From assembly GCA_002841295.1 (NCBI GenBank), contig PHEU01000010.1, positions 62,001 to 126,000 on the forward strand: a DNA stretch of 64,000 bases, in the 5' to 3' direction. A program made the translations under genes and the position numbers. Shown piece after piece: positions 54,163 through 59,993 of the stretch (positions are counted from its first letter, which is position 1; each line of letters begins with the position of its first letter). The DNA is from Actinobacteria bacterium HGW-Actinobacteria-6 (lineage in GTDB: Bacteria > Actinomycetota > Coriobacteriia > Anaerosomatales > Anaerosomataceae). The notes beneath the pieces are model-generated. The model saw only the letters and a list, made by a program, of their open reading frames with translations. It was not told the origin of the DNA and made no database searches.

Positions 54163-54522
54163 ATGTCTGGTGATCGTTGGTCGCTCAGAAACATCTATCT
54201 GTATCTCGTCTGTTTGATCACGCTCATCATGATGATCGTCGCGGCCGTTGGGGTCGTGCGCTCCACCGTCGAGCTCATCTATCCCGACCCCGGTTACTTC
54301 TATGATGTGCCGGTCGAGAAGGGCGGTACCCCAGGCCTGACGCAGGAGCAGATCGACCGGCAGCGGGAATCGCAGCAGCAGCAGTCGCAGCGGCAGGGAG
54401 TACTCAGCCTGGTTGGCAGTGTTGCGATGCTCGTCGTTGCAGGACCGCTCTACATCTACCACTGGCGCAAGATCGAGACTGAGCGACCGGCCGAAGCGTC
54501 CAAACCACTTCCCACTGCCTGA
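54163..54522 (+). CDS. Small two-helix membrane protein (DUF5671-like)
   Basis: 119 residues from the ATG at 54163 (GGAAGGCAATGCG upstream). A first hydrophobic segment (about 8-32, RNIYLYLVCLITLIMMIV) is followed by an exterior loop with a Gln/Arg-rich stretch (about 65-78), then a second helix (about 80-100) ending in a basic cytosolic tail. It resembles DUF5671 membrane proteins. Function unknown. Located 20 bases upstream of glutaredoxin on the same strand. Confidence 0.65.
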   Translation: MSGDRWSLRNIYLYLVCLITLIMMIVAAVGVVRSTVELIYPDPGYFYDVPVEKGGTPGLTQEQIDRQRESQQQQSQRQGVLSLVGSVAMLVVAGPLYIYHWRKIETERPAEASKPLPTA

Positions 54523-54542: not shown

Positions 54543-54788
54543 ATGTCCGTGATGTTGTATGGGCTGTCGACCTGTCCGTATTGCCGCATGACCCGCAAGT
54601 ACCTGGAGGACAACGATGTTGAGTTCGATATCCTCGAGGTGGACCTCCTTGAGGGAGATGAGCGTGCCGAGGCGATCGCTAAGGTGAAGGAACTCTCAAA
54701 CGGTACGTCGTTCCCTGTGGTCGTTGTGGACGACGAAGTCATCGTCGGGTTCAACAAGAAGCGGATCAAGGAGCTGCTGTCGCTATGA
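54543..54788 (+). CDS. Glutaredoxin/NrdH-like redoxin
   Basis: 81 residues with a thioredoxin fold: start strand MLYGLSTCPYC with redox-active Cys11 and Cys14, a cis-Pro in TSFPVVVV, and the GF motif near the C-terminus. It shuttles electrons to disulfide substrates. Its stop overlaps the start of the FTR-Rieske gene (ATGA, 54785-54788), so it is the evident redox partner of that protein. Confidence 0.93.
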   Translation: MSVMLYGLSTCPYCRMTRKYLEDNDVEFDILEVDLLEGDERAEAIAKVKELSNGTSFPVVVVDDEVIVGFNKKRIKELLSL

Positions 54789-55450
54789 GCGAGGCAGCAC
54801 CGGTTCGTCGAAGATTCAACCCGGACACGACTATCGAGGATCTCAAGGCGTATATGGCGCCGTTCGTGGATCGGCTCGGCTACAAGTTCAACACCGACGA
54901 GGAGTTCGTCGATGAGGTGCTCACCTCTGAACTGGAGCTGCTTGAGTCGACAGGCGATGTGTTCTGCCCCTGCCGCGTACGCACGGGGGATCCGAAAGAG
55001 GACGCGAAGATCGTCTGCCCCTGCATCCCGTTCTTTCGTGACCAGTTCGCCGGGCTTAACAAGTGCTGGTGCGGACTCTTCATCTTGAACGAGGTCGAAG
55101 ATGGTACGGAGTTGCTTGGCGTTATCGATGAGCCAACGGGCCCCGTTGATGTTCCGGTGTTCAAGGTTGCCGATCTGCCGGATGGCCAGATACGTCACGT
55201 CAAGGTAGGTAGGCATGATATCGCCGTGGCGCGAGTTGCAGACGAGTTCTTTGCGCTTTCGAACGTCTGTCGTCATGCCTTCGCCCCACTTGCCGAGGGG
55301 TTCATGGACGGCTATCAGGTCATGTGCCCCTGGCATGGCTGGCGGTACGACGTTCGCGATGGAACCACCGATCACCCCGGATCTGACGTCAAAACATATC
55401 CGGTTTCGGTTGTTGATGGCGAGATTCGCGTGAGAGTGACGATTCGGTGA
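54785..55450 (+). CDS. Ferredoxin-thioredoxin reductase catalytic domain fused to a Rieske domain
   Basis: 221 residues. Residues about 10-110 match the catalytic subunit of ferredoxin:thioredoxin reductase: three CxC-type pairs C61/C63, C78/C80 and C94/C96 (CPC, CPC, CWC), which in the family hold a [4Fe-4S] cluster and the active disulfide. Residues about 122-221 form a Rieske [2Fe-2S] domain with ligands C162 and H164, then C181 and H184 (CRH ... CPWH). Cytosolic; no signal or membrane segment. Adjacent glutaredoxin suggests a ferredoxin-driven system that reduces glutaredoxin. The Rieske domain could act as an internal electron-entry module. I infer this role from the domain pairing. Confidence 0.9.
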   Translation: MSEAAPVRRRFNPDTTIEDLKAYMAPFVDRLGYKFNTDEEFVDEVLTSELELLESTGDVFCPCRVRTGDPKEDAKIVCPCIPFFRDQFAGLNKCWCGLFILNEVEDGTELLGVIDEPTGPVDVPVFKVADLPDGQIRHVKVGRHDIAVARVADEFFALSNVCRHAFAPLAEGFMDGYQVMCPWHGWRYDVRDGTTDHPGSDVKTYPVSVVDGEIRVRVTIR

Positions 55451-55671: not shown

Positions 55672-56883
55672 ATGACCAGCAAGCGTAAGCGGTTCGTTGC
55701 CCTGGTCGCAGCTACCGCAGCCCTGGCCCTCGTGGTCACGGGTTGTGCGAGCAAGACTGAAACGGGCGGAACTGACGGCGGCGCCACAGAGGCGACCGTA
55801 GTCAAAATCGGTATCGGTGCACCGCTGACGCAGGGCGCAGTTGCGCTTGGCAAAGGTATGGAGCGCGGCGCCAACCTGGCCATCTCGCAGGCCAACGAAG
55901 ATCCTGCGGTTGTGGATCTCGGCATCAAGTTCGAGAGCGTCTCTGGCGACGACCAGGGCGACCCGAAGACCGGCGTTACCGTAGCAAACCAGTTTGCTTC
56001 TGACTCCAAGCTCGTTGGTGTCATGGGCCATCTGAACTCGGGTGTCTCTATCCCGGCTTCGAAGGTCTACAACCAGAACAGCATCGTCATGGTGTCGCCG
56101 GCGTCGACCAACCCCGCGCTTACCCAGCAGGGCTTGGACAACGTCTTCCGCGTTTGCACCATCGACTCGGTCCAGGGTCCCTCGGCCGCCGACTCGGCGT
56201 TCAAGGACCTTGGCTTCACCAGCGCGTTCGTGGTCGACGACTCGACCCCGTACGGCACCGGTCTCGCGGATGAGTTCGCGAAGCAGTTCGAGGCTGACGG
56301 CGGCAAGATGCTGGGTCGCGAGAAGACCGGCGACAAGGACAGCGACTTCAACGCGCTTGTCACCAAGATCAAGTCCCTGAGCCCGGCCGTTGTGTACTAC
56401 GGCGGCATCTACAACTCAGGCGCACTGCTCTCCAAGCAGCTCTCTGACGCCGGCGTGACCGCCCCGCTCATGGGTGGCGACGGTATGTACGACGGTGAGT
56501 ACGTCAAGCTCGCGGGTGACGCTGCTGCCGAGGGCGATTTCTGCACCTCCATCGGCTACCCGATCGACCAGCTGCCGAAGGGTGCCGACTTCAAGGCCGC
56601 CTTCGAAGCTGCGTACCCGGGTGATGCTATCGCCGCGTACGACGCGTACTCCTTCGATGCAACGAACGTTATCATCGATGCAGTCAAGAAGGTTGCTGCT
56701 GACCTCGGTGCCGACAAGGTCACCTCTCCTGAGGGCAAGACTGCCATCATCGCCGCTGTTGCAGCGACGAACATGGACGGCGTCAGTGGTGCCGTTGCTT
56801 TCGATGCCAACGGTGACACGACGAACAAGGTCATCACGCTGTATACCGTCAAGGCTGGCGCATGGACCGCGTACGTTAAGTAA
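55672..56883 (+). CDS. livJ: Branched-chain amino acid ABC importer, binding lipoprotein
   Basis: 403 residues from the ATG at 55672 (AAAGGAGGACGGT upstream). Lipobox VTGC after a basic start, so lipid-anchored. The mature part is a type I binding fold of the Leu/Ile/Val class: IGIGAPLTQGAVALGKGMERGANLAI, GHLNSGVSIPASKVY, ASTNPALT. The ligand is likely a branched-chain or other hydrophobic amino acid, although this class also binds amides and urea. A 13-bp GC hairpin follows (56920-56949). Confidence 0.93.
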   Translation: MTSKRKRFVALVAATAALALVVTGCASKTETGGTDGGATEATVVKIGIGAPLTQGAVALGKGMERGANLAISQANEDPAVVDLGIKFESVSGDDQGDPKTGVTVANQFASDSKLVGVMGHLNSGVSIPASKVYNQNSIVMVSPASTNPALTQQGLDNVFRVCTIDSVQGPSAADSAFKDLGFTSAFVVDDSTPYGTGLADEFAKQFEADGGKMLGREKTGDKDSDFNALVTKIKSLSPAVVYYGGIYNSGALLSKQLSDAGVTAPLMGGDGMYDGEYVKLAGDAAAEGDFCTSIGYPIDQLPKGADFKAAFEAAYPGDAIAAYDAYSFDATNVIIDAVKKVAADLGADKVTSPEGKTAIIAAVAATNMDGVSGAVAFDANGDTTNKVITLYTVKAGAWTAYVK

Positions 56884-56919
56884 GCGCCCCGTGTGTAGGG
56901 TCTTTCTCTAGGACCTTAA

Positions 56920-56949
56920 CCGGGCGGGCGCCGAGTGGCGCCCGCCCGG
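56920..56949 (+). promoter_or_regulatory. Intercistronic GC hairpin between livJ and livH
   Basis: A 13-bp perfect stem (56920-56932 with 56937-56949, CCGGGCGGGCGCC) and GAGT loop with no T tract. It parallels the hairpin after the sugar-binding gene at 13943-13974 and probably stabilises the abundant binding-protein message. Confidence 0.7.
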
Positions 56950-57018
56950 AGCGTGTATCAACGTGATACCAACCGCGCTGAGAAGTCGCGCGCAGTTCGG
57001 AAGACAGGTGATCGGTCA

Positions 57019-57969
57019 GTGTCCGCGGACGTCTTAGTCCAGCAACTCATCAACGGCATTACACTGGGCGGCCTTTACGCCCTGATTGCCCTTGGCTACA
57101 CGCTCGTATACGGCATCATGCTCATGATCAACTTCGCTCACAGCGAGATGTTCATGAGTGGTGGCTACGTAGGTTTGTTCGTACTCAAGGCTCTCACGAA
57201 TGAGAGTCTTGTCGGCGTAGGAACTGTTGCGTTCTTCAAGGGCAGCTCAATCGGCCTTATCATTCTCTTCGCAATGGTGTTCCTTTCCGCCGCAATCGTC
57301 GTGGGTCTGCTCGGCGTGGTCATTGAGCGCTTCGCGTATCGACCCCTGCGCCATGCGCCCAGGCTCGCCCCGCTCATCTCGGCGATCGGCGTGTCCATCT
57401 TCTTGCAGAACGCAGTTCTTCTGTGGGTCGACAGCAAGGCACTCCCGTTCCCCTCGGTCATGCCAGTCGTGACTGTGATCGACGCCGGTGGCGTCACGGT
57501 GAACTCACTTCAGATCCTCATCCTTGTGACTACTCTCCTGCTACTGGCAGTCCTCGACACATTCGTGTCCAAGACGAGGATCGGCAAGGCCATGCGGGCA
57601 ACTTCGCAGGACCGTGAGGCGGCAGGTCTCATGGGTATCGATATCAACCAGGTCATCGCGCTGGCGTTCTTCATCGGCCCCGCGCTCGGTGGCATCGCCG
57701 GTGTCTTCCATGGAATGTATTACGGTTCCGTGAAGTTCGACATGGGCTTCCTGCCCGGTATCAAGTCCTTTACCGCAGCTGTCATCGGCGGCATCGGTAA
57801 CCTTCGCGGCGCTATGCTCGGCGGGTTTGTACTCGGTATTCTCGAGTCCCTGGCTGCCGGCTTCCTGAGCGCCGGATACAAGGATGTTGTGGCCTTCGCT
57901 ATCCTCATCCTCGTCCTGATCTTCCGACCGGGCGGTTTGCTCGGCGAGTCCGTCGTGGAGAAGGTGTAG
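57019..57969 (+). CDS. livH: Branched-chain amino acid ABC importer, permease
   Basis: 316 residues from the GTG at 57019 (AGGTGA upstream); a longer open frame to 56935 runs through the hairpin and is rejected. Eight or so membrane helices with family blocks LINGITLGGLYALIALGYTLVYGI, INFAHSEMFM and TSQDREAAGLMGI. Forms a heterodimer with LivM. Confidence 0.93.
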   Translation: MSADVLVQQLINGITLGGLYALIALGYTLVYGIMLMINFAHSEMFMSGGYVGLFVLKALTNESLVGVGTVAFFKGSSIGLIILFAMVFLSAAIVVGLLGVVIERFAYRPLRHAPRLAPLISAIGVSIFLQNAVLLWVDSKALPFPSVMPVVTVIDAGGVTVNSLQILILVTTLLLLAVLDTFVSKTRIGKAMRATSQDREAAGLMGIDINQVIALAFFIGPALGGIAGVFHGMYYGSVKFDMGFLPGIKSFTAAVIGGIGNLRGAMLGGFVLGILESLAAGFLSAGYKDVVAFAILILVLIFRPGGLLGESVVEKV

Positions 57970-57972
57970 ACC

Positions 57973-59181
57973 ATGGGCGGAAGTAAAATGGATATCAAAA
58001 CAGTCGTCAGTGGACGCAAGCTCACAACGAAGCAGAAGATCATCTACGCGATCATCGCGGCACTTGTGGTGCTCGTCCCGATCTTCTTTCAGGGCATCGG
58101 CCAGCTCTTCCTGGTGCGCATCATGGGCGTTGTCGGTCTGTACGTTATGCTGGCACTCGGCCTGAACATCGTTGTCGGCTTCGCAGGGCTGCTCGACTTG
58201 GGGTATATCGCGTTCTACGCGATGGGTGCCTACGTCGGCGTGCTCGTCGGAGATGTGATGCTCAAGCTGTTTGGCGCGTCCTTTGGCCCGTACGTGTACT
58301 TCGCGGCCTTGCCTGTCGCAGCGCTCGCAGCGGCGGCCACAGGTATCGCACTTGGTACGCCGGTTCTCCGGCTTCGCGGTGACTATCTCGCAATCGTCAC
58401 GCTCGGCTTCGGTGAGATCGTGCGTATCCTGATCACCAACGACGTGTTCGGGCTCACGAACGGTGCTGCGGGCCTACCCCGGGCCGGAGAGTTCATTCCC
58501 GATCCGGCTGGCCTCGTCTGGCTTCGACAGAATGCTGTGTTCAGCATCGGCGACAACTTCAACTTCCAGTTCTCCAACAACTTGTACTGGTACTTCATTG
58601 CGGTGATGCTCTGCCTGCTCACCATCTTTGTTGTGCGCCGACTTGACGACTCCCGCCTGGGTCGGTCGTGGACCGCAATGCGCGAGGATGAGGTTGCGGC
58701 GGCTTCTGTTGGCATCAACATCACCAGTGCCAAGCTGTGGGCGTTCTCGCTTGGAGCCGTGTGGGGCGGTGTTGCGGGTCTCACGTTCGCCAACTTCCAG
58801 CAGTTCGTCAGCCCCGAGTCCTTCACGTTCATGGAGTCGGTGTTCGTGGTGTGTATCGTTGTGTTGGGTGGTATGGGCTCGATTCCCGGCGCAATCATCG
58901 GTGCAATCATCATCCAGGGTATCCCGGAGCTCATTCGCGGCCTGGCACAGTCTGGCATCCTGCCGCTCGACCCCGGGCAGGCGTCGCTCGTCAGCAACTA
59001 CCGCTACCTGGTCTTTGGTCTGGTCATGGTCATCATGATGGCGGTGCGACCACAGGGTATTTGGCCCTCAGCACGTCGCGCCATGGAACTCCATCCAGAC
59101 GATGAGAAGATCCGCGACGAGGAGAGCCAATCGCTGTGGGAGGCCGAACACAAGACCGAGACGGCCGACCATGACCTGTAG
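57973..59181 (+). CDS. livM: Branched-chain amino acid ABC importer, permease
   Basis: 402 residues, ATG three bases after the livH stop with AAGGTG upstream. About nine helices; family blocks MLALGLNIVVGFAGLLDLGYIAFYAMGAY and LRGDYLAIVTLGFGEIVRI, and a conserved MREDEVAAASVGIN. The C-terminal 35 residues are acidic and cytosolic (PDDEKIRDEESQSLWE), a little longer than usual. Confidence 0.93.
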   Translation: MGGSKMDIKTVVSGRKLTTKQKIIYAIIAALVVLVPIFFQGIGQLFLVRIMGVVGLYVMLALGLNIVVGFAGLLDLGYIAFYAMGAYVGVLVGDVMLKLFGASFGPYVYFAALPVAALAAAATGIALGTPVLRLRGDYLAIVTLGFGEIVRILITNDVFGLTNGAAGLPRAGEFIPDPAGLVWLRQNAVFSIGDNFNFQFSNNLYWYFIAVMLCLLTIFVVRRLDDSRLGRSWTAMREDEVAAASVGINITSAKLWAFSLGAVWGGVAGLTFANFQQFVSPESFTFMESVFVVCIVVLGGMGSIPGAIIGAIIIQGIPELIRGLAQSGILPLDPGQASLVSNYRYLVFGLVMVIMMAVRPQGIWPSARRAMELHPDDEKIRDEESQSLWEAEHKTETADHDL

Positions 59182-59210
59182 GGTCCCGTAGCAAGGAAGG
59201 CTTGAGAACC

Positions 59211-59993
59211 ATGGCTCTTGTAGAAGCAAAGAACATAACGATGGCGTTCGGTGGCCTCAAAGCACTGAGCGGCCTCGAAATGCATATCGACGAAGGAGAG
59301 ATCGTCGCCCTTATCGGCCCAAACGGTGCAGGCAAGACGACGTTCTTCAACTTGCTTACGGGTATCTACAAGCCCACCGAGGGTGAGCTGCTCTTCCAGG
59401 ACACCCCCGTGGCCGGGAAGAAGGCCCATCAGATCTGTGCGATGGGTATTGCTCGGACGTTCCAGAACATCAGGTTGTTCGCGAACATGACGACGCTTGA
59501 GAACGTCATGGTCGGCCGCCACATTCGGACCAACAACGGTCCGCTCGGCGCGGTTCTTCGCACCCCGAGGTTCAAGCGTGAGGAACAGCACACCATTGAT
59601 GAGGCCTTGAACCGTTTGCGTTTTGTTGGTCTGGTCGACAAAGCCAACGAACTGGCCAAGAACCTGCCCTACGGTGCCCAGCGTCGTTTGGAGATCGCAC
59701 GCGCGCTTGCAACCGAGCCCAAGCTCATCTTGCTCGACGAGCCGGCCGCAGGCATGAACCCGCAGGAGAGCGCACGGCTCACGCAGCTGGTGCGTAGAAT
59801 CCGCGAGACCGGTGTGACTGTCTTGCTTATCGAGCATGACATGAAAGTCGTCATGGATATCGCGGATCGTATCTACGTGCTCGACTTCGGTGAGCTTATT
59901 GCCGAGGGTCTGCCCGCAGAGATTCAGCGGCATCCGAAAGTCATCGAAGCGTATCTCGGCAAGGGTGCCGAGGCCATGCTGGCTCAGGCATAA
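59211..59993 (+). CDS. livG: Branched-chain amino acid ABC importer, ATP-binding protein
   Basis: 260 residues from the ATG at 59211 (AAGGAAGG upstream). Walker A GPNGAGKTT, Q-loop ARTFQNIRLF, a PYGAQRRLEIARAL signature that replaces LSGGQ as usual for LivG, and Walker B LILLDEPAAGMNP. One of two ATPases of the importer; LivF is encoded next. Confidence 0.95.
   Translation: MALVEAKNITMAFGGLKALSGLEMHIDEGEIVALIGPNGAGKTTFFNLLTGIYKPTEGELLFQDTPVAGKKAHQICAMGIARTFQNIRLFANMTTLENVMVGRHIRTNNGPLGAVLRTPRFKREEQHTIDEALNRLRFVGLVDKANELAKNLPYGAQRRLEIARALATEPKLILLDEPAAGMNPQESARLTQLVRRIRETGVTVLLIEHDMKVVMDIADRIYVLDFGELIAEGLPAEIQRHPKVIEAYLGKGAEAMLAQA

Follow-up and report, generated by a model that had tools for sequence, protein, structure and literature searches.

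What does a Rieske [2Fe-2S] domain do when it is joined to the catalytic domain of a ferredoxin:thioredoxin reductase (FTR)? The question is raised by two overlapping genes on the forward strand of the 64,000-nucleotide stretch of DNA analysed here (the window). The first (54543-54788) encodes an 81-residue, methanoredoxin-type glutaredoxin-like protein (PF00462, E-value 6.5e-15) with a CPYC active site (54573-54584). The second (54785-55450) encodes a 221-residue protein in which an FTR catalytic domain (PF02943, residues 18-107, 54836-55105; 1.3e-18 and 67.4 bits against a Pfam cut-off of 22) precedes a Rieske domain (PF00355, residues 123-206, 55151-55402; 1.7e-19). The stop codon of the glutaredoxin gene and the start codon of the FTR-Rieske gene share the four nucleotides ATGA (54785-54788), an overlap that makes translational coupling of the two proteins likely. 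An earlier note on the sequence had described both the joining of these domains in one open reading frame (ORF) and the overlap with a CPYC glutaredoxin, and its coordinates are correct.

The FTR half has the motif CPC-x14-CPC-x13-CWC, formed by C61 and C63 (54965-54973), C78 and C80 (55016-55024), and C94, W95 and C96 (55064-55072), where plant FTR has histidine at the tryptophan position. These are the six cysteines typical of FTR and of ferredoxin:disulfide reductase (FDR), and their roles are assigned by analogy. The C-terminal half is a Rieske domain by both sequence and model, with the ligand pattern C162-x-H164 (CRH, 55268-55276) and C181-x-x-H184 (CPWH, 55325-55336). The AlphaFold model of the fusion (mean pLDDT 86, pTM 0.80) has values mostly above 90 in the Rieske half and of about 52 in residues 61-80, the first cluster loops, and its Rieske half matches the Rieske ferredoxin 2QPZ with Z 14.0 and rmsd 2.1 over 97 residues. 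Fold searches list only Rieske structures; the FTR half was barely tested by them, and the absence of FTR structures from the lists is uninformative.

The FTR-Rieske fusion is real, conserved and order-wide. It was recovered as 58 distinct sequences, essentially all from Anaerosomatales/Coriobacteriia, and a glutaredoxin-type ORF lies directly upstream at 57 of these loci, the sole exception (L007) being a short contig with the gene at its end. Of the 58 distinct homologous pairs, 46 have a spacing of -4 nt between stop and start, and the two genes occur together in 45 of 46 named loci. The source genome has one FTR gene; together with 60 relatives from the order it makes up a set of 61 genomes, 50 of which have an FTR match, and five of 47 good-quality relatives have none. 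The first 30 loci taken from the order all show an FTR motif followed by a Rieske motif, and an alignment of 29 sequences (alignment A1) has no variation at any of the six FTR cysteines or four Rieske ligands. Pairwise comparisons with relatives, limited to unsaturated dS, placed dN/dS at ∼0.08-0.16 in the FTR half and at 0.06-0.15 in the Rieske half; both halves are under purifying selection. An assembly or missed-stop artefact was ruled out by the intact frame in many independent assemblies, and a plasmid-borne origin by the lack of any plasmid record that matches 80% of the query at a single location.

Distribution was assessed with two short motif patterns against the genomes of 84,980 species, the sole coverage of other phyla and one that could overlook a fusion that arose independently and has another motif. 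The scan returned 46 relatives that align with the query over most of its length and bear labels such as Coriobacteriia and Actinobacteria/Actinomycetes, together with two archaeal FTRs whose match is limited to the FTR part. Two of the 46 are labelled Slackia and Aeromicrobium, which are probably misnamed bins. Two labels read Anaerosomatales, and the order of the fusion is named accordingly because one of these two sequences (L053) has FTR and Rieske motif strings identical to those of L012, whose genome belongs to the window's own family. Across 246 genomes of the phylum, full-length matches were confined to four genomes, all of the window's own family, and no FTR match was obtained in any genome listed for the remaining orders of the class. 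A divergent FTR-Rieske protein (L076:4983-5645, labelled Coriobacteriia) is 37% identical, has both domains above Pfam cut-offs and is preceded by a CSYC redoxin.

To which known enzyme does the fusion correspond? NCBIfam has no model of the combination, and its separate FtrB and Rieske models all fall below their cut-offs; a literature search found no description of an FTR-Rieske fusion. With the PDB sequence search and Pfam equally silent, these results agree with the earlier note's view that no such enzyme has been characterized. The fusion is apparently undescribed so far, and belongs to the FTR/FDR kind with an exchanged module. In the PDB search the FTR half matched 4TPU best (6.5e-10), then 7PWE (1.5e-8), and plant and cyanobacterial FTRs (7BZK, 1DJ7) weakly (0.0054-0.077). 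The redoxin matched 3IC4 (2.7e-20), 3NZN (6.5e-19), 5CAX (5.7e-18) and 7PWE (3.4e-11), and the Rieske half, searched with a family profile, matched 1VCK (4.8e-18). Like the fusion, Methanosarcina acetivorans FDR (4TPU) has a CPC-CPC-CxC FTR domain followed by a small C-terminal iron module. However, its module is a rubredoxin (one Fe, four Cys; CKVCGY...CPIC in the alignment), whereas that of the fusion is a Rieske domain (2Fe-2S, two Cys and two His), and its last FTR motif is CYC, not CWC. FDR reportedly reduces methanoredoxin, and its rubredoxin has been proposed to mediate electron transfer from ferredoxin to the [4Fe-4S] cluster. Clear homology links the co-encoded redoxin to 5CAX, which we take to be the methanoredoxin of M. 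acetivorans (Yenugudhati et al. 2016, cited in PMC7278568), and to the archaeal glutaredoxins 3NZN and 3IC4, although the redoxin's CxxC site is CPYC where 3NZN and 5CAX have CVWC.

The protein 7PWE ('Ferredoxin-thioredoxin reductase subunit B') matches the redoxin over its own residues 6-82 and the FTR domain over its residues 79-171 and, judged by these matches, is a natural one-chain Grx-FTR fusion with its domains in the order of the two genes here (glutaredoxin first, FTR-Rieske second), although it unites in one chain what is here encoded in two and lacks a Rieske domain. The catalytic subunits of plant and cyanobacterial FTR (7BZK, 1DJ7) share PF02943 and the six-cysteine plan, but they have a CHC motif, a shorter loop and a separate variable subunit, and they reduce thioredoxins. 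The Rieske ferredoxins of dioxygenases (CarAc, 1VCK; NDO, 2QPZ) resemble the C-terminal half in fold and ligands, but are stand-alone oxygenase carriers and have phenylalanine at the position aligned with Y188 of the fusion.

A survey of 396 genomes of the phylum, 59 of which have an FTR domain, indicates what usually occupies the place of the Rieske domain. Outside the order, the FTR domain is followed by a rubredoxin motif in 25 of 30 distinct sequences, and each of these 25 has a glutaredoxin-type ORF upstream; as read from these sequences, the operon elsewhere in Actinomycetota is mostly glutaredoxin plus FTR-rubredoxin. Because of these operons and the matches to 4TPU, 5CAX and 7PWE, we identify the fusion at the sequence level as an FDR with a Rieske domain in rubredoxin's place. 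The exchange is accompanied by a change within the last FTR motif, where the residue between the two cysteines is tryptophan in all 58 Rieske-type and tyrosine in all 25 rubredoxin-type sequences; forms with no recognized module have His, Phe, Lys, Trp or Tyr there. In a tree of the FTR domain (92 columns, several long branches), the Rieske forms group with the module-less CWC sequence L129 with support of 99/85. Two changes of the Rieske label are needed on this tree, with L129, a long branch, falling inside the Rieske forms through either loss or placement error. The L129 locus (genome G372) pairs a CPWC glutaredoxin with a CWC-motif FTR that has neither a Rieske nor a rubredoxin module, and may be an intermediate or a secondary loss. 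Either Rieske replaced rubredoxin or both joined a module-less ancestor. Some genomes of the order also have a second FTR paralogue with a CHC motif (L102:3920-4543; also L100, L101, L103, L105 and L107), usually with a tail of ∼107-123 residues that contains no Pfam domain (tested in L102) and with no adjacent glutaredoxin; in L102 a DsrE-like gene precedes it and an HGD-D gene lies near it on the opposite strand.

The catalytic site can be read against spinach FTR, in which C55 and C57 are the counterparts of C61, the presumed cluster ligand, and C63, the presumed active-site cysteine. One Rieske form from the order (L073, the same locus as L104 of genome G029) has TGA in place of C63, the latter cysteine of CPC motif 1, giving CPU (L073:5169), and five rubredoxin forms (L128, L147, L150, L153 and L154) have TGA at the last FTR cysteine, giving CYU. 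An in-frame TGA at an active-site cysteine is likely to encode selenocysteine. A stem that can be folded downstream of the L073 TGA has a free energy of -20.6 kcal/mol versus about -10.5 for two cysteine versions, a comparison that carries no significance statistic, and the genome with this Rieske form also yields a tRNA-Sec match scoring 72.1 bits, well above the cut-off. By analogy with spinach FTR, the TGA positions would be the two active-site cysteines and not cluster ligands, and selenocysteine there supports thiol/selenol exchange chemistry. Many other FTR matches in the phylum scan likewise contain a single TGA.

We propose that the gene pair is probably an FDR system in which ferredoxin-fed reduction of the redoxin takes place at the FTR site and the Rieske domain acts as a one-electron relay (reduced ferredoxin to Rieske to FTR [4Fe-4S]/C63-C96 disulfide to CPYC redoxin to targets). 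We infer that, once the clusters are assembled, the Rieske domain would accept electrons from a carrier outside the protein (probably a ferredoxin of low potential) and would pass them singly within the protein to the FTR cluster from the place where other FDRs have rubredoxin. The active-site [4Fe-4S] cluster, predicted from FTR to lie beside a redox disulfide (C63-C96), would reduce the disulfide of the redoxin, its presumed substrate, in two one-electron steps, and the redoxin would in turn pass thiols on to cellular targets. The step from FTR to redoxin is highly probable in view of the operon, the 7PWE fusion and homology. The relay role and direction proposed for the Rieske domain, by analogy with the place of rubredoxin, have the balance of likelihood slightly in their favour. 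That a Rieske domain could feed electrons to the FTR or tune its potential had been suggested in the earlier note, and is plausible.

The main difficulty for such a relay is potential. High-potential Rieske proteins have tyrosine at the position equivalent to Y188, and this residue would, if anything, raise the potential of the domain. Dioxygenase-type Rieske ferredoxins have potentials near -150 mV (PMC1847435). With such relatives and with Y188, electron transfer from the Rieske cluster to the thiol-reducing site would be uphill unless the potential is tuned, although a modest uphill step could possibly be pulled by oxidation of the redoxin. The stronger proposal, that the Rieske cluster is the obligatory entry for electrons to the FTR [4Fe-4S] cluster, with unusual tuning of its potential and with tryptophan in place of the catalytic His/Tyr, is made tentatively, as its likelihood falls a little short of even.

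The expectation that the Rieske potential lies above that of the thiol site also suits a different arrangement, in which ferredoxin reduces the FTR [4Fe-4S] cluster directly, as in plant FTR, and the Rieske domain serves as redox sensor, gate or docking module, setting activity through its oxidation state or binding a partner. FTR domains with no added module do exist (L077, L078, L140, L151 and L158), and L129 combines a Grx with a CWC-type FTR that is likewise module-less. However, rubredoxin and Rieske domains are unrelated folds that stand in the same place in matching operons, which argues for a shared task of electron transfer and against one that depends on a specific shape, and we regard the sensor, gate or docking arrangement as unlikely.

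Less likely still is an outward flow of electrons, in which the FTR or the redoxin reduces the Rieske domain, and this in turn a further acceptor, for instance an enzyme that detoxifies peroxide or oxygen. An expected potential of about -150 mV would lie downhill from the low-potential FTR site, but the pair has no conserved acceptor gene in its neighbourhood; the downstream genes vary between lineages, and the operon core consists of Grx and FTR-Rieske only. In the window the pair is followed by branched-chain amino-acid type ABC transporter genes (55675-59993), and their link to it looks incidental, since other lineages differ there. A small predicted membrane protein resembling DUF5671 is encoded ∼20 nt upstream of the glutaredoxin gene (54163-54522); its homologues are often near the gene pair but occur in only 21 of 46 named loci, and it was ruled out as part of the operon core. 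A role of the pair in delivering or repairing iron-sulfur clusters, and not in disulfide reduction, is very improbable: glutaredoxins can carry [2Fe-2S] clusters, but this one has a CPYC dithiol site where cluster carriers have CGFS, the two active-site cysteines of the FTR domain are retained or replaced by Sec, pointing to thiol chemistry, and no Isc/Suf gene was identified among the conserved neighbour clusters recognized in a general comparison of the loci.

The favoured FDR reading fits what is known of the hosts. The cultured representatives of this little-studied order live anaerobically and have a metabolism linked to ferredoxin, with pyruvate:ferredoxin oxidoreductase and a complex I that lacks the NADH module (PMC9686372). 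The designation of the redoxin as a glutaredoxin in the earlier note holds for its PF00462 homology but probably not for its cofactor, as searches of 21 genomes with the glutathione-synthesis ligase families PF04107 and PF04262 turned up no gamma-glutamylcysteine ligase; glutathione dependence is therefore unlikely, although uptake from outside is possible. Methanoredoxin is able to use coenzyme M (PMC7278568). A point against the FDR reading is that thioredoxin reductase-like genes are present in all genomes examined, above the cut-off in 19 of 21, and the FTR-Rieske/redoxin pair is therefore not the only thiol reductant.

Where other FDRs have rubredoxin, the equivalent position in this operon is taken by an unrelated [2Fe-2S] module, and the residue at the catalytic His/Tyr position differs in step with it. 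Comparison of the Rieske and rubredoxin forms would reveal what is required of the module, be it potential, one-electron relay or docking. If the proposed role is correct, two unrelated iron modules have been exchanged naturally in one enzyme, and the Rieske cluster, usually associated with quinol oxidation or oxygenases, would have a place in thiol-redox control, serving protein-thiol reduction in anaerobes.
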